From contig NZ_CP031148.1 of NCBI RefSeq assembly GCF_003342675.1, forward strand, positions 1,240,001 through 1,304,000: a DNA stretch of 64,000 nt. Direction: 5' to 3'. The first letter of the stretch is position 1; each line of letters opens with the position of its first letter. This document shows positions 42,158-48,746 of this stretch, piece by piece. The DNA is from Haloplanus rubicundus. GTDB taxonomy: Archaea; Halobacteriota; Halobacteria; Halobacteriales; Haloferacaceae. The notes beneath the pieces were generated by a model, which was not told the origin of the DNA, made no database searches, and saw only the letters and a program-made list of their open reading frames with translations. Both the position numbers and the translations under genes were made by a program.

Positions 42158-43378
42158 CTACTCCATTGACTGAATCAATTCTACGACACGCCGCGGTAGC
42201 GTGAGTGCCTCAAAGTCACTCACAACGTTAGCAACAAGATTGAGGCCGACAGCGAACTCGTACTCGTAGTACTGTCCTCCGGAACGGCCCTCGTTACGAG
42301 AACGACGGTCAAGGATACCAAGCATTGCAAGGTCAGCAAGGTGGTCATGCATACGACGGCGAACCAGCGGATCGATATCCGACTGCTCAGATATTGTACG
42401 ATACTGTGGGTAAATGTCCCGTACGCGAAATGGCCCTCCTGACTCAAGAGCTAATTGTAGGACCGCCACGAGCGAAAGATGTCCATGGCGTGTGAGTTCG
42501 CGCATCCCGTGTTCGATTTGGCTCCGCTCAAGTTTGTTCCGGGCTTCGTGAACATCGTCCTTGGTAATTTTGTCATGGCTTGCAGCTCGTGCGAGTTCGC
42601 CGGCTTGGTACAACAAATCAAGCGCTTGTCTTGCACTCCCTGTGTCTTGTGCGGCAATAGCAGCACATAATGCGAGTACGCCCGATTCAGTGGCATCATC
42701 AAAGAGAGCACCCTCCGCTCGTCGATCAAGAATTGCTTCCAGCTCGGGCGCATTGTACGGTGAGAAGTGGATCTCTTCCTCACAAAGTGTGTCTTTCACT
42801 TTCGGAGAGAGATTATCCCGAAAGCCGAAGTCATTGCTAATTCCGATTACTCCGGGTTTCGTTGCTGTTAGGTAGCCGTTTGAGCGCGCTCGTGGAATTT
42901 CATAAAGGATCTCATCGTCGGTACCAATGTGATCAATCTCGTCGAGGACGATCAAGACTGTTCCACCGACTGCATCGAGTTCCTCATACAGGAGATCAAA
43001 GACACGTTGTTGGGGATATCCAGTTGTGCTGATTTGATCCTCAGCTGGACGTAGTGTATTGACGAGGTTGACTGCTACTTGATACGACGAAGAGAGATTC
43101 GTACAATTAAGCCAAAACACCGACAGAGAAACATCGTCGTACTGGGCTGAGTCTTGTTGCAGTTGTTCGAGCAGATACCGTGAGACAGCTGTCTTCCCAA
43201 CACCAGTTTTCCCATATAAGAAAACGTTCCGTGGTTGGGCACCGTTTATTACCGGTTGGAGTGCGGTTTTGTACGCACTTAGTTCCGCCTCTCGAGCCAT
43301 GATTGATTGCGGTTGGTAATCATCCCGAAGCATATCCTCGTCGCGGAAGATATGGGTGTCACGAGTGAACGTCGGCAT
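42158..43378 (-). CDS. cdc6: Orc1/Cdc6 replication initiator
   Basis: 406 aa, full length. The AAA+ domain has Walker [18 protein letters not shown], Walker [11 protein letters not shown], sensor 1 [11 protein letters not shown] (the initiator-specific segment) and sensor 2 [19 protein letters not shown]-terminal winged helix follows ([32 protein letters not shown]), which binds origin repeats. It is probably the initiator for the flanking 22-bp repeats. Its start at 43378 lies about 140 bp from the nearest reverse repeat, so the initiator may also control its own transcription. Confidence 0.95.
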
Positions 43379-43517: not shown

Positions 43518-43539
43518 AAACATTCGACATGGTGGGGTG
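43518..43539 (-). repeat. Origin repeat (ORB-like) 4, inverted
   Basis: AAACATTCGACATGGTGGGG plus TG, the reverse complement form of repeats 1-3. Confidence 0.82.
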
Positions 43540-43590
43540 AGTTCGTCACAGTTGATGGAGATATCCAACTCTGCCCCAACCTCGTTTGGA

Positions 43591-43612
43591 GAACATTCGA
43601 CACGGTGGGGTG
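43591..43612 (-). repeat. Origin repeat (ORB-like) 5, inverted
   Basis: GAACATTCGACACGGTGGGG plus TG. It differs from the complement of repeat 1 at one position. Confidence 0.85.
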
Positions 43613-43624
43613 TGGGAGGAGCGG

Positions 43625-44110: not shown

Positions 44111-44123
44111 AAGTTTTAATACG
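44111..44123 (+). promoter_or_regulatory. TATA-like promoter of the overlapping operon
   Basis: AAGTTTTAATACG at 44111-44123 matches the archaeal TATA consensus and lies about 35-45 bp before the micro-ORF start at 44157. No other AT-rich core precedes the operon. Confidence 0.45.
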
Positions 44124-44156
44124 GGTGGGGAAATACATAAAAGTGCGACGCACGGG

Positions 44157-44225
44157 ATGTCTCAGAAAAACCGAGGCCGGTGCTGCAACACCGACCCGTG
44201 CTTCGCTAACCCCTACGAAGCATGA
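44157..44225 (+). CDS. Cys-rich micro-ORF at the head of the operon
   Basis: 22 aa: MSQKNRGRCCNTDPCFANPY plus two residues. The stop overlaps the next ATG by 4 bp (ATGA at 44222-44225), the same kind of junction as between the following genes. Three Cys in CCNTDPC could bind zinc with help from a partner. It is too short to prove as coding; it could also be a leader peptide coupling translation. Confidence 0.4.
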   Translation: MSQKNRGRCCNTDPCFANPYEA

Positions 44226-44716
44226 CGAACTCTGATCCACCAAATAAAGAACCTGTCGCACAGTCATTGGACCACGACCTAGCCGACTCACAGCTCCACC
44301 GCTGTCTTGTCTGCGGTGTCGTTGGACTCCCAGAACGGATCGCGATCCACACCTGCCAGGACACGCCCAGCACCCACCCCCAGACGACTCGGATCACTCC
44401 CGACCCAGCCCACCCCCGGTCCCGCACTACCCACACAGCGACGCTCCAGCGGTGTGCAGACGCACTCTCACCCGTCTCCGGCGTCCAGGCCGCGGACGTC
44501 TGCACCGACAATCCCCTCCTCAACCATCCGGTCCTCGAAGTCGTCGGTGGCCCAGGCACCTTCGTCCCACCCCGAATTCTGCACATTCTCGCCACACACC
44601 ATTGTGGCCTCCGCGGACTCCACACGCGACAGCTCCCCCAGTCGTGGGTCCTTGAAGCGGTCTGTCCCAGCCCCGCACAGTCACCGGCCAGTACCACCCC
44701 ATCCACCCACCAATGA
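44222..44716 (+). CDS. Zinc-finger-like protein of the overlapping operon
   Basis: 164 aa. A single zinc-knuckle-like cluster is near the N-terminus: C28-x2-C31 (HRCLVCG), then H43-x-C45 (IHTCQ). A Thr/Pro/His-rich linker is followed by a region with further Cys (LQRCADALS, AADVCTDN, THHCGLRG). It overlaps its neighbours by 4 bp at both ends. Codons are strongly C-ending, supporting real coding. No family is recognised; it may be a DNA- or RNA-binding partner of the nuclease encoded downstream. Confidence 0.6.
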   Translation: MTNSDPPNKEPVAQSLDHDLADSQLHRCLVCGVVGLPERIAIHTCQDTPSTHPQTTRITPDPAHPRSRTTHTATLQRCADALSPVSGVQAADVCTDNPLLNHPVLEVVGGPGTFVPPRILHILATHHCGLRGLHTRQLPQSWVLEAVCPSPAQSPASTTPSTHQ

Positions 44717-45084
44717 CACACCTCCCAGACGACGATCAGCCCACCACTGAGACCGGCTTCACCGTCGAGACCGGTGTCACCCGCCAGCTCGAAGACGAAT
44801 ACTCCAAAGCCGCTCTCGAGGTTACCTCCAAAGCGACGGCCGACCAAACGCTCCTCGTCGGATTCGGTGGCCACTGGGGGACGACCACCACCGAACTCAC
44901 ACCAACCCAAGCCCGTGACCTCGCCCGCGCGCTTGAACACGCAGCCGAGCAACTCAAGACTACCCCGGAGTCGGCTCCAGAGAACAGTCAATCCTCGACG
45001 ACGGCCACTAGCACTGACACCCACGAGTCATCTCCCACACCAGACGACCCGCTTGAGCAGGAGGTGCGCCATGAGCGATCGTGA
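44713..45084 (+). CDS. Small acidic protein of the overlapping operon
   Basis: 123 aa. A compact core includes TLLVGFGGHWGTTTTELT and an amphipathic helix (PTQARDLARALEHAAEQL), then a disordered Ser/Thr/Asp/Pro tail. ATGA overlap with the upstream gene and 14-bp overlap with the nuclease gene indicate coupled translation, implying stoichiometric partners. No motif for catalysis is visible. It could be an adaptor or inhibitor of the nuclease. Confidence 0.65.
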   Translation: MTHLPDDDQPTTETGFTVETGVTRQLEDEYSKAALEVTSKATADQTLLVGFGGHWGTTTTELTPTQARDLARALEHAAEQLKTTPESAPENSQSSTTATSTDTHESSPTPDDPLEQEVRHERS

Positions 45085-45766
45085 CGACTCCGGTGACGAC
45101 GAGCCCGTCCACGACCCCCCACGCGACACTACCCGTGGACGGGGCCACGGCCAAGGCGTGTGGCTCGAGATCCAACTCCAGCAGGCCCTTGAAGAGTGGG
45201 GGTATGCCGCCGCCCGTCGTGAACCCCTCGTCGCACTCACCGCGGATGTCGTCGCCTGTCGCCAAGAGCCCCGAGATAAGCCCGCCGACTACCTCGTCGC
45301 CGAATGCAAAGACTGGCAAAGTCGCGCCATCGACGAGTCGGTGATCATCCGCCTCTGTCTGCTTGCCTTCCTGGGTCGGGCCATGCCCGTTCTCTGTCAC
45401 ACCTCAAGACTCACGGATCGGGCGTGGCGACTCGCCCAGGCCTTTGACGTCCGCCTGCTCACGCTTGAGGATCTCGACGGTGACGAGCTCCCACCGCTGA
45501 CTCGCAAGCGGCCACCCAAGGCGGCCGATATCCACCGGGACTCGATCAGCCCGGAGACCCTTCGGCAAACGCCGCCAGTCACACTGTGTCGACCTCCACA
45601 TGACCGGCAGGATGCCGATATCGAAGCGGCGATCTTCTCTCCCACCAAGAGCGCGCCGTGTTACGTGCCCGATCGGTCCGGCCACGAAGAGTATGCCGAT
45701 ACAGCGTTTTCGCGGTATCTCCGCCACGAACGCCGCAAACGGGACACACAGGTCGACGACCAGTAG
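45071..45766 (+). CDS. Mrr/PD-(D/E)XK-type nuclease of the overlapping operon
   Basis: 231 aa from ATG 45071. The restriction-endonuclease fold is recognisable: E33 in the first helix (WLEIQLQQAL), D59 in LTADVVACR, and E78-C-K80 in YLVAECKDW, giving D(x18)ExK. A helix-strand pair follows (VIIRLCLLAFLGRAMPVLCH, LAQAFDVRLLTLEDL), as in Mrr-like or Holliday-junction-type nucleases. The C-terminal 90 residues are proline- and acid-rich. As the last gene of the overlapping set next to an origin, it may be plasmid maintenance, DNA processing or a small defence system; which of these cannot be read. Confidence 0.78.
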   Translation: MSDRDDSGDDEPVHDPPRDTTRGRGHGQGVWLEIQLQQALEEWGYAAARREPLVALTADVVACRQEPRDKPADYLVAECKDWQSRAIDESVIIRLCLLAFLGRAMPVLCHTSRLTDRAWRLAQAFDVRLLTLEDLDGDELPPLTRKRPPKAADIHRDSISPETLRQTPPVTLCRPPHDRQDADIEAAIFSPTKSAPCYVPDRSGHEEYADTAFSRYLRHERRKRDTQVDDQ

Positions 45767-45815
45767 GGAAGACGACGAGCGCAGAACCAACCTTCCCTGT
45801 CGCTCACAGAGATGC

Positions 45816-45855
45816 GAGGTGGAAGCCCACGGCTTCAGCCATGGGAGGAATCCGA
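45816..45855. repeat. Orphan IS200/IS605-type end
   Basis: GAGGTGGAAGCCCACGGCTT begins a terminus matching the left ends at 97 and 14701. The hairpin CCCACGGCTTCAGCCATGGG is at 45826-45845. No transposase is attached, so it is a solo end or PATE-like element between the nuclease operon and the TumE pair. Confidence 0.65.
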
Positions 45856-45901
45856 CTACAGCCTGCTGTTCGTGGTTGATTATAGCACAGCTCCGCAAAT
45901 C

Positions 45902-45924
45902 TTTATGTCCTATGAGGTCATAAA
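45902..45924 (+). promoter_or_regulatory. Palindromic operator/promoter of the TumE-like pair
   Basis: TTTATGTCCT-ATG-AGGTCATAAA is an inverted repeat with one mismatch in the arms. It sits 18 bp before the toxin-like ATG and contains the TATA-like core. It is a good candidate autoregulatory site for the HTH protein encoded second. Confidence 0.55.
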
Positions 45925-45941
45925 TCATATAGAATAGCAGG

Positions 45942-46244
45942 ATGCCGGAGAACCAGCCGATTGAACTCAATCGCGCCGTCCCAGGTGGCCGCGTGGAGTT
46001 GTTCGCGACCCGCGACGAGTATCCCGGTGATTGGTTCTACCAGTTCCAGTACTACCACCCGGAAGAGGGCGAGTTCCTGCGCTACGACAACGCGCACGAT
46101 GACGACGATCTCGGTTGGCACCACCGACACGTTCGATTCGGCGAGGATTCCGAGATTCCGTTCCAGAACATCAGTGCGCACGTCGCCCGCTTCCTCCAAG
46201 AGGTCGTCCACCTCACCGATATCGAGGACACGAACCATGACTGA
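45942..46244 (+). CDS. TumE-like (DUF6516-type) toxin candidate
   Basis: 100 aa. The body (GRVELFATRDEYPGDWFYQF, FLRYDNAHDDDDLGWHHRHV, then HVARFLQEVVHL) has the arrangement of TumE-family proteins: a beta sheet with a D-N-A/PH segment and a final helix. TumE proteins are toxins of type II-like pairs with a HVO_A0114-type DNA-binding partner, which is exactly the next gene. The overlap of 8 bp with that gene supports a pair. Biochemical activity is not known to me. Confidence 0.75.
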   Translation: MPENQPIELNRAVPGGRVELFATRDEYPGDWFYQFQYYHPEEGEFLRYDNAHDDDDLGWHHRHVRFGEDSEIPFQNISAHVARFLQEVVHLTDIEDTNHD

Positions 46245-46695
46245 TCACACCACCGACGGCTGGCCCGACAAGTACAGCGACCCCCGCGACCGTCCGCACC
46301 CAGACATCCTTCGCGTGACTGTCGAGTCGTTCGACGCGGCCCGCGAGGGTACGGTCGGGGCTGTCGACGCAGTTGCCGAAAGAGAATCGGCACCGGCAGT
46401 CGTGTCGTTCGCGACGGTCGGAGAGCTGCGGAAGATGCTGACCGACCGCCGCATCGAACTCCTCCGGACGCTGTTGAATACCGACGGTGCTGCCGAGAGT
46501 ATTTCAGCGCTGGCCGAGGATCTCGGCCGCGACTACCGGACGGTCCACGACGACGTCTCCCTGCTCGCAGACTACGGCCTCCTTTTCGTCGTCGACGAGG
46601 GGCAGTCGAAGCGGCCGTACCTGCCCTACGAGCGGATTCACCTCGACGTTGAACTCGCCGGCGGAGAACCGGACGAAGAGCCCGCACCGGCCTGA
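46237..46695 (+). CDS. HVO_A0114-type winged-helix DNA-binding protein (TumA-like antitoxin)
   Basis: 152 aa from ATG 46237, overlapping the toxin-like gene. Residues 20-60 (ILRVTVESFDAAREGTVGAV) form the family's N-terminal domain. A MarR-like winged helix follows: FATVGELRKMLTDRRIELLR, ESISALAEDLGRDYRTVHDD, then the wing ADYGLLFVVDEGQSKRPYLP. It should repress its own operon, probably through the palindrome at 45902-45924, and neutralise the upstream protein. Confidence 0.85.
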   Translation: MTDHTTDGWPDKYSDPRDRPHPDILRVTVESFDAAREGTVGAVDAVAERESAPAVVSFATVGELRKMLTDRRIELLRTLLNTDGAAESISALAEDLGRDYRTVHDDVSLLADYGLLFVVDEGQSKRPYLPYERIHLDVELAGGEPDEEPAPA

Positions 46696-46813
46696 CACAG
46701 CAGCCGGTTGGCCGACTTCGAACGGGTTGATGCATTCGATCCGCGCAAGTCTACAGGCTGAGCAGGCCGAGTGCCTCGAGGCTTGATCCCGAGGGTGAAG
46801 GCCGTACGCTCCG

Positions 46814-47266
46814 CTAAACGTGTTCCGTGCGTTCGATATACTGCTCAATCGTGTCTGTCGAAACGTCGCCTGCCGTCCCAACGTAGTACGATTCCTCCCA
46901 GAACCCACCGCCCCACAGATACTCCTCCAATAATGACTCGTGCTGTTCCCACATCTCCCGCGCCGTGATGCTCTTGACCGTCCGCACAATCTTGCTCGGC
47001 GCGTGCTTCGGGTGGACGAAAAGGAACAGGTGTACGTGGTCGGGTGAGAAGTGGAGTCGTTCGAGAGACTCCGTCTCTCGTGATCACAAAAATCGGAGAT
47101 TTTCGGACGACGACAGTATCTCGTAGCCGTACTCATTGCACCCATCACGGAAACTCGCTTCCAGCGAATTCTCGATTGGTTCGAGGATGGCGTGGCGGTA
47201 CTTCGGACACCACACGAAATGGTAGTTGACGTTGTACACCGTGTGATTCAACCGCTTCTCACCCAT
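46814..47266 (-). pseudogene. tnpA: tnpA with an in-frame TGA stop
   Basis: The N-terminus MGEKRLNHTVYNVNYHFVWC and PKYRHAIL is clear, and translation stops at TGA (47084-47086). In the same frame it continues as RLHFSPDHVHLFLFVHPKHA with the HUH motif, VKSITAREMWEQHES, YVGTAGDVSTDTIEQYIERT with the expected Tyr, and a TAG at 46814. One nonsense codon therefore separates two otherwise intact halves of a 150-codon Y1 transposase. The junction peptide around the stop (NLRFL*SRETESLER) is longer than in the TnpA at 224, so a small insertion is possible. Confidence 0.85.
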
Positions 47267-47319
47267 ATCGAACCCACCCCACCAGCACAGTTAAGTATAT
47301 CCAAAGGATATACGCGGGT

Positions 47320-47475
47320 ATGATGAATCGCTTTGAAATCGACGGCGAGGAAGTTCTCGATGGCGAGGTCAAACCGTTCGGGAACAGCGCCCACGTCACT
47401 GTCCCGAAACGCTGGCGTGGAGCCGACGTGAAAGTCGTCCGAACCTCAGAACCCACCGAACAAGACGAAGAATGA
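47320..47475 (+). CDS. DUF2080-type small transposon-associated protein
   Basis: 51 aa (MMNRFEIDGEEVLDGEVKPF, then GNSAHVTVPKRWRGADVKVV). It has an AbrB-like single hairpin flavour (GNSAHVTVPKRW) and is found before tnpB in several haloarchaeal elements. Its stop overlaps the tnpB ATG (ATGA). The element at 59001 carries a close relative at 60249. Role unknown; it may regulate tnpB expression. Confidence 0.85.
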   Translation: MMNRFEIDGEEVLDGEVKPFGNSAHVTVPKRWRGADVKVVRTSEPTEQDEE

Positions 47476-48746
47476 GCGACTCACAGGCTCTCGTCAAGAC
47501 TCTGGATTTCCAGCTCAACATCCAGAGTGACAACGAGGGTCTGCTGTACGACGCCACACTCGAAGCCCGTCGAGTGTACAACGAAACCATCCGACTTGCC
47601 AAAGACGGCGTAGACTGGGACGCCATTCCCGGCCGCGTGGCCGACGATGCCAACCTCGTGAAGAACACGACTCAGCGCGTCGTTGCCAAGGCTCTCGGTG
47701 CGATGGAGAACTACTACGAGTACGACAACTTCGGACTCCCCAGTCACACCAAGGACGGTGCGTACCCGATTCGTGCGAACTACGAGGAAGGGTACAACCT
47801 ATCGCCCACCGACGACGGTGACGTGGCGTTCCGTATCAGCGCGAAGCCGTACAAACACGTCAAGGGCGTCCTCGAAGGGAGTGACTCCCACCTCGATATT
47901 CTCAAGACTGCGCTCACGAGAGACGAGTGGAAGATTGGGACAGCGGAAGCCCTCTTCCACAACGACAACGCTGAGTTGCACGTCAATATCACCAACACCG
48001 AGCAGGCTGTTCGAGACAAGCAGGACTCGCGGACGGTCATCGGTGTGGACGTGAACGAAGACAACGTAGCCCTCACCGCTCTGTCCGAAGACGGGGTTGA
48101 GAACACGCTAGTTATCGACTCTCCCGAAATCAAGTTCGAGCGCCACCGCTACTTCACGATGCGGAAGCGCGTCCAGAACGCGGGGAAGGAAAGCGTCCAC
48201 GACACGTTGGAAGGGCGTGAGGAACGGTTTGTCCGCGACCGACTCCACAAGGTGTCTCGGCACATCGTGGAGTGGAGTCAGCAGTTCGAGAAGTCGTGCA
48301 TCGTCTTTGAAGACCTCAAAGAGATGCGCGACAGTATCGACTACGGTACGCGGATGAACCGACGCTTGCACCACCTCCCGTTCCGCGCCCTTCAGTTCTA
48401 TACGTCGTACAAGGCGTCGTTCGAGGGCATCCCGACCGCGTGGATTAATCCTGAGTACACGAGTCAACGATGTCCGATATGTGGGCATACGGAGCGTGCG
48501 AACCGCAACAAGAAGCGGTTCAAGTGCAAGGACTGTGAGCATCAAGACCACAGCGACCGTGGTGCAAGCGTCAACATCGCCGTGAAAAGCGTGAAGAAAC
48601 TCAATTGGAATGTGCCTGCTCTCAACAGCCTTCCCGTTGTTCGAAAGGTGCGACGGCAGGCATCGGGGGCCGTGGACGCCCCGACCGTGACCCACTCGAC
48701 CGTTCGAGGCTATCAGGCCGATGGTCTGATGGGAGTGTCCGACTAA
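47472..48746 (+). CDS. tnpB: TnpB RNA-guided nuclease
   Basis: 424 aa and complete: D193 in GVDVNEDNVAL, E280 in VFEDLKEMRD, a zinc ribbon CPICG...CKDCE and D362 in HSDRGASVNIA. It is translated from an ATG overlapping the small DUF2080-type gene. Its C-terminal tail (TVTHSTVRGYQADGLMGVSD) is encoded close to the right-end hairpin. A degenerate second copy of the same gene is at 55153-55660. Confidence 0.93.
   Translation: MSDSQALVKTLDFQLNIQSDNEGLLYDATLEARRVYNETIRLAKDGVDWDAIPGRVADDANLVKNTTQRVVAKALGAMENYYEYDNFGLPSHTKDGAYPIRANYEEGYNLSPTDDGDVAFRISAKPYKHVKGVLEGSDSHLDILKTALTRDEWKIGTAEALFHNDNAELHVNITNTEQAVRDKQDSRTVIGVDVNEDNVALTALSEDGVENTLVIDSPEIKFERHRYFTMRKRVQNAGKESVHDTLEGREERFVRDRLHKVSRHIVEWSQQFEKSCIVFEDLKEMRDSIDYGTRMNRRLHHLPFRALQFYTSYKASFEGIPTAWINPEYTSQRCPICGHTERANRNKKRFKCKDCEHQDHSDRGASVNIAVKSVKKLNWNVPALNSLPVVRKVRRQASGAVDAPTVTHSTVRGYQADGLMGVSD

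Follow-up and report, generated by a model that had tools for sequence, protein, structure and literature searches.

A predicted leader RNA with competing helices at the head of a haloarchaeal Mrr-like nuclease operon that shares parts with HRAMP systems

Introduction

To our knowledge, haloarchaea have yielded few natural cis-regulatory RNAs. HRAMP systems are derivatives of type III CRISPR and represent a predicted RNA-dependent defence system. The accessible text of two sources describes them as haloarchaeal RAMP systems without a CRISPR array (PMC8730458, PMC12669027), and the accessible part of the review PMC12669027 states that they are usually linked to HNH and PD-(D/E)xK nucleases. A leader RNA for HRAMP is not mentioned in the accessible text of either source, and no RNA reported for HRAMP was found in the open-access literature.

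The operon described here, from Haloplanus rubicundus, resembles HRAMP in being haloarchaeal, in having a nuclease whose family occurs in the HRAMP operons of five genomes, and in carrying the same RNA leader. It differs from HRAMP in that it has no Cas5/Cas7-like genes, and neither of the two HRAMP proteins searched for was found in its genome. The operon lies in a stretch of 64,000 nucleotides (the window) at 1.24-1.30 Mb of the contig NZ_CP031148.1. Since this contig accounts for 3.40 Mb of a 3.77-Mb genome, the window is probably chromosomal and not part of an autonomous plasmid. Positions given below are those of the window, and all features of the operon are located on the plus strand.

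Results

Organization of the locus

A first-pass annotation had listed four consecutive ORFs (44157-44225, 44222-44716, 44713-45084, and 45071-45766) with overlaps of 4, 4, and 14 bp, a nuclease with the residues D59 and E78-x-K80 as the product of the last one, and an adjoining orc1/cdc6 gene. The coordinates, the overlaps, and the residues (D59 and E78-C-K80) were all borne out by the sequence, and the orc1/cdc6 gene was located at 42158-43378, on the strand opposite to the operon. Comparison of the two closest relatives revealed coding signal, with dN/dS values of 0.10 for the nuclease and 0.32 for the upstream fusion protein (ORF2C-ORF3), indicating that these genes are under selection.

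The order of four ORFs was not kept in related loci, where ORF2 consisted of two modules separately fused to ORF3 and where the first "ORF" corresponded to an RNA. Linkage to orc1/cdc6 was rejected as a rule: a cdc6 gene was near only a few of the 48 nuclease loci. Regarding the roles suggested earlier, defence is favoured because the nuclease occurs in HRAMP operons, and plasmid maintenance is not supported, given the 3.4-Mb contig and the rarity of cdc6 in the neighbourhood. Beside orc1/cdc6, at 43520-43620, the window contains a 21-bp direct repeat (ACATTCGACATGGTGGGGTG type), whose copies may be origin recognition boxes.

The nuclease and the proteins encoded upstream of it

The last gene (45071-45766) encodes a protein of 231 amino acids which, with its fold judged by motif only, is a divergent Mrr_cat-like PD-(D/E)XK protein. 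In 11 homologues, E33, D59, and K80 were invariant, and position 78 was occupied by E or Q. The protein shares with Mrr_cat (PF04471) the E...D...(E/Q)xK motif and the helix-strand pattern that follows it; it differs in its extensions and in a C-terminal P-x-Y tail, and the window copy scored 17.8 bits, below the Pfam cut-off of 21, which the long-class homologue HLAC_RS19760 passed with 24.2 bits. Relatives of the nuclease were present in 52 of 391 haloarchaeal genomes and on several plasmids, and none was found in phage and viral collections. A profile search of the PDB with the nuclease returned only weak glycosylase noise, and PADLOC, PHROGs, and NCBIfam gave nothing useful for ORF2, ORF3, or the nuclease.

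ORF3 (44713-45084) encodes a small acidic protein of 123 amino acids, the core of which resembles DUF6907 (PF21848), a family of unknown function, with a score of 22.3 bits that remains below the cut-off of 26. With this sub-threshold match and that of the nuclease to Mrr_cat, the earlier statement of no family match, made for the first three ORFs, was not confirmed. The proposal of a Mrr-like nuclease with obligate-looking partners gained support, as an ORF3-like domain was encoded directly upstream of nearly every intact nuclease of the short class, to which the window protein belongs. ORF2 (44222-44716, 164 amino acids) combines an N-terminal CCHC finger (C28, C31, H43, C45) with a C-terminal domain, and the two halves are separate in relatives: the half with the CCHC finger is fused to ORF3 in locus L013 and the C-terminal half, as judged by eye, in L010 and L011. 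In Halorubrum-type loci, a protein of about 950 amino acids that weakly matches CARF-type winged helices is followed by ORF3 and then by the nuclease.

A structured RNA leader upstream of ORF2

The first hint of an element upstream of ORF2 came from two DNA matches of the window, one of 250 bp to locus L050 and one of 72 bp to L047 that extended upstream of ORF2. Using 131 bases as a query, blastn matched 43 of 391 genomes, many of them without the nuclease; an alignment of 19 copies revealed a three-way junction with compensatory changes, and the covariance model detected the element in 177 of the 391 haloarchaeal genomes, distributed over 59 of 86 genera. A phylum-wide sample of 196 genomes yielded no leader outside Halobacteria (12 of 12 positives were haloarchaea), and none was found in phages. 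No Rfam family matched at the element, and no publication on this leader RNA was found in the open-access literature.

In the window, the leader extends from 44136 to 44225 and scored 82.9 bits with the covariance model; folded in the form containing P1, it has a minimum free energy of -31 kcal/mol (z -3.66). The three-way junction is built by the stems P1 (44145-44156/44195-44206), P2 (44159-44163/44173-44177), and P3 (44178-44182/44189-44193). An additional hairpin, P4 (GCUUCG/CGAAGC, 44200-44205/44216-44221), ends exactly at the ATG of ORF2 and shares its 5' arm with P1. A TATA-like box (TTTTAATA, 44114-44121) is located 31 nt upstream of P1, and in 80 leaders such motifs cluster 28-33 nt before P1. 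Judging by the position of this motif, transcription is expected to begin at P1 or close to it, P1 being probably the 5' end of the transcript.

Covariation was evaluated in an alignment of 82 matches, of which 80 were real copies and two were weak strays. In this alignment, 96.4% of the cells were paired, a value that leans towards the structure to which the alignment was fitted; more reliance can be placed on the two-sided changes and on the slid controls. Two-sided changes were observed at 13 of the 18 pairs, and two-sided compensatory cells numbered 158, compared to 39.5 in shuffles (0 of 500 were as high) and 7-40 in slid controls. P4 had been left out of the covariance model. When the 80 leaders were inspected for it, 77 contained a stem of 5 bp or more whose end lay 0-2 nt (in one case 4 nt) upstream of the first ATG, compared to about 14 with random ATGs and 44 after swapping of the 3' arms between copies. 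Different versions of P4 occur (GCUUCG/CGAAGC, GCUUCC/GGAAGC, GCUGG/CCAGC, and GCUUCUC/GAGAAGC), with arms that match within each copy. In Halorubrum lacusprofundi ATCC 49239, the leader occupies 380167-380250 of NC_012030.1 and reaches the start of HLAC_RS17445 (380247). P1 and P4 share the strand GCUUC, or only GCU in the GCUGG group, and as read from the sequence the two helices compete for this one strand.

The leader also heads genes for LAGLIDADG proteins and other unrelated genes, and its job is therefore not specific to nucleases. In loci L103, L110, L112, and L117, the leader RNA is followed by a short peptide or a CCHC finger and then by a LAGLIDADG endonuclease with an HTH domain.

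The Cys-rich micro-ORF of 22 amino acids that the first-pass annotation had considered a gene (44157-44225) lies over this structure. It is an open frame ending in ATGA at the next start, as would be expected for a real leader peptide or small protein, but the ATGA overlap was present in only 45 of the 80 leaders. Across these 80 related leaders the frame varied from 0 to 42 codons, the encoded residues were unrelated, and the start was often absent, while the nucleotides kept the structure. A conserved peptide was accordingly rejected, and we judge the 22-aa ORF to be a chance frame over a structured RNA; that it is translated into a functional product seems highly improbable. Little more probable is a role of the element as a DNA feature, such as a transposon end, a recombination site, or an operator. 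Its inverted repeats, the location of some copies on plasmids, and the IS200/605 pieces nearby in the window would be compatible with such a role, but the element is strand-specific, its distances to the AUG and to the TATA-like box are fixed, it tolerates G-U pairs, and the three-way junction covaries, all of which speaks against a DNA feature.

A sister variant of the leader

Weak matches upstream of HRAMP operons without a strong match were found at the expected place and on the expected strand. The model R3, built from nine weak matches upstream of HRAMP operons, detected this second form, variant B, in 129 of 212 genomes. In 49 copies of variant B, two-sided changes occurred at 17 of the 21 pairs, and P4 again mostly abutted the AUG, with other sequences (GGGUUC/GAACCC, GGUUGUC/GACAACC, and GGUUCUGUG/CACAGAACC). 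By its sequence and pairing, variant B is a sister variant that has the same design as the first with other sequences; the strand common to P1 and P4 reads GGGUUC, among others, in this variant. Some genomes have several copies of variant B, and in L252, L257, L264, L266, and L267 variant-B leaders precede genes encoding SWIM-like zinc motifs (CxCP...CKH).

Leader RNAs upstream of HRAMP and nuclease operons

Operons were counted in one genome per species, at places chosen by protein matches. In about 42 of 51 testable clade-1 HRAMP operons, a tally over several searches, the leader was present upstream on the right strand, and R3 found it in all 14 upstream regions of clade-2 operons tested, 12 of which were outside the training set. 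Models R2 and R3 detected the leader in about 15 loci with the 950-aa protein, ORF3, and the nuclease and in several long-class nuclease operons; it lay about 0.3-1.4 kb ahead of the first conserved gene and in the right orientation. The scores in Halorubrum nuclease loci were weak (E 1e-6 to 0.07), with place and strand agreeing in nearly every case; one additional match (L071, 1268-1354) was discordant in place or strand.

The HRAMP operons of the two clades carry the two sister leader RNAs (L155:2944-3873, L100:1748-2614, L224-L237). The first gene of the clade-2 operons L232 and L235 encodes a zinc protein (C-x2-C ... AYAFRAAGN) resembling that found ahead of the 950-aa gene in the nuclease operons. 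The 950-aa winged-helix protein was also seen behind the leader RNA and a zinc protein, with no nuclease noted, in L160, L161, L168, L187, and L189-L191.

The Cas7-like protein of the HRAMP operons resembles Csm3 (E 0.0014) and their third protein resembles Cmr3 (E 3e-8), both of which fit HRAMP as described in the accessible text of PMC8730458 and PMC12669027. In five genomes (G133, G072, G364, G105, and G116), the nuclease gene was preceded, within 5 kb and on its own strand, by the Cas7-like gene. In G133, the order was leader RNA, Cas7-like protein, a protein of 260 amino acids, Cmr3/Cas5-like protein, a broken 950-aa gene, ORF3, and nuclease. By genome, the nuclease and HRAMP co-occurred 28 times (13.7 expected, p 6e-6), and the first-variant RNA and HRAMP co-occurred 56 times (46.6 expected, p 0.04), which is barely above chance. 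Cas7-like and Cmr3-like proteins had no match in the genome of H. rubicundus from which the window comes (G000), so the operon was not filed as HRAMP and is HRAMP-like only by its parts.

Discussion

We lean, with slightly better than even confidence, towards the locus being an HRAMP-type operon without RAMP (Cas5/Cas7-like) genes, which would supply the accessory nuclease of a probable defence system and be placed under a translational RNA switch. The first 80 nt or so of the mRNA would form a structured leader. With P1 formed, the stretch before the AUG would be open and ORF2 could be translated; with P4 formed, the start of ORF2 would be masked. The choice between P1 and P4 may be set by a ligand, a protein, or folding kinetics, and because accessory genes of many kinds follow the leader, the signal should be one that is general to haloarchaea. 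Translation of ORF3 and the nuclease would be coupled to that of the preceding gene through the overlaps of 4 and 14 bp. ORF2, with its CCHC finger, and ORF3 are candidates for a nucleic-acid-binding subunit and a partner subunit that would aim or restrain the nuclease, and the Mrr-like nuclease would cut invading DNA.

Riboswitch-type or attenuator leaders have the same 5' position, a hairpin at the start codon, and a conserved structure with compensatory changes, and these features recur in both variants of the leader studied here, in which two helices would, by sequence, compete for one strand as they do in such leaders. Unlike them, it belongs to no Rfam family, has no known ligand, and was present only in Halobacteria among the genomes searched. 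Most of the HRAMP operons tested, and their nuclease-only relatives, are headed by this widespread structured RNA, which either regulates these operons or works with them. As a large candidate family of riboswitch-like RNAs, the leader would be a rarity among haloarchaea.

RAMP proteins are descendants of subunits that bind crRNA, and the leader could be the missing RNA partner of HRAMP, bound whole or as a cleaved piece by the Cas5/Cas7-like proteins and serving as a guide scaffold or in autoregulation. The absence of a CRISPR array, according to the accessible text of PMC8730458 and PMC12669027, and the presence of the leader ahead of most HRAMP operons in both clades speak for this partnership, which we nevertheless regard as unlikely. 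The leader occurs in many genomes and operons without a Cas7-like gene, including the window, and the notion that it is a part of HRAMP only was downgraded for this reason; it nearly always abuts the start codon, as a cis element does, and its alignment showed no variable guide-like segment. An RNA working with HRAMP proteins is also less likely because the genome co-occurrence, determined for the first variant only, is just slightly above chance. The fuller version, with the leader as a functional partner (guide scaffold or RNP autoregulation) and operons without RAMP genes answering to the same RNA-based control, appears a shade less likely still; if true, HRAMP would depend on an RNA and would encode that RNA in its own 5' leader. 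An addiction pair, in which ORF3 and the nuclease would behave like antitoxin and toxin, stabilize the region, and be controlled by ORF2 and the leader, is unlikely to about the same degree as the missing partner. The small acidic gene overlaps the nuclease gene and is conserved with it, many of the loci are on plasmids, and toxin-antitoxin modules gather downstream. Against this, the operon is shared with large wHTH or HRAMP genes, some nuclease operons have no ORF3 (the long class and L048), and degenerate nuclease copies are tolerated without it.

Toxin-antitoxin modules and mobile elements downstream of the nuclease

Both the window and most Halorubrum-type loci have a toxin-antitoxin module directly past the stop codon of the nuclease, often of differing type (TumE, PemK, PIN with MazE, HepT with a nucleotidyltransferase, or RHH with ParE). 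In the window it consists of a TumE-like toxin gene (45942-46244; PF20126, 30 bits, cut-off 23.4) and an overlapping HVO_A0114-type winged-helix gene, the probable antitoxin (46237-46695; PF25212, 93.8 bits, cut-off 27.6), both on the plus strand. In L039-L042, for which the window counterpart is 45767-46695, modules of different types alternate with 5'-truncated copies of the nuclease gene. These fragments keep the 3' end and the stop codon, their 5' cut points are variable, and the similarity ends at the stop. From their sequence, the arrays look like the outcome of cassette insertion at the 3' end of the nuclease gene, and they would fit repeated single-crossover insertion of circles carrying this 3' end and a toxin-antitoxin module.

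Pieces of the IS200/IS605 type were recognized by eye just past the nuclease, as a 3'-end-like stretch at 45800-45860, and at 46800-48746, as a TnpA-like frame and TnpB. A weak match to the Rfam sot RNA, a family whose matches mark TnpB-type elements, lies at 48610-48728.
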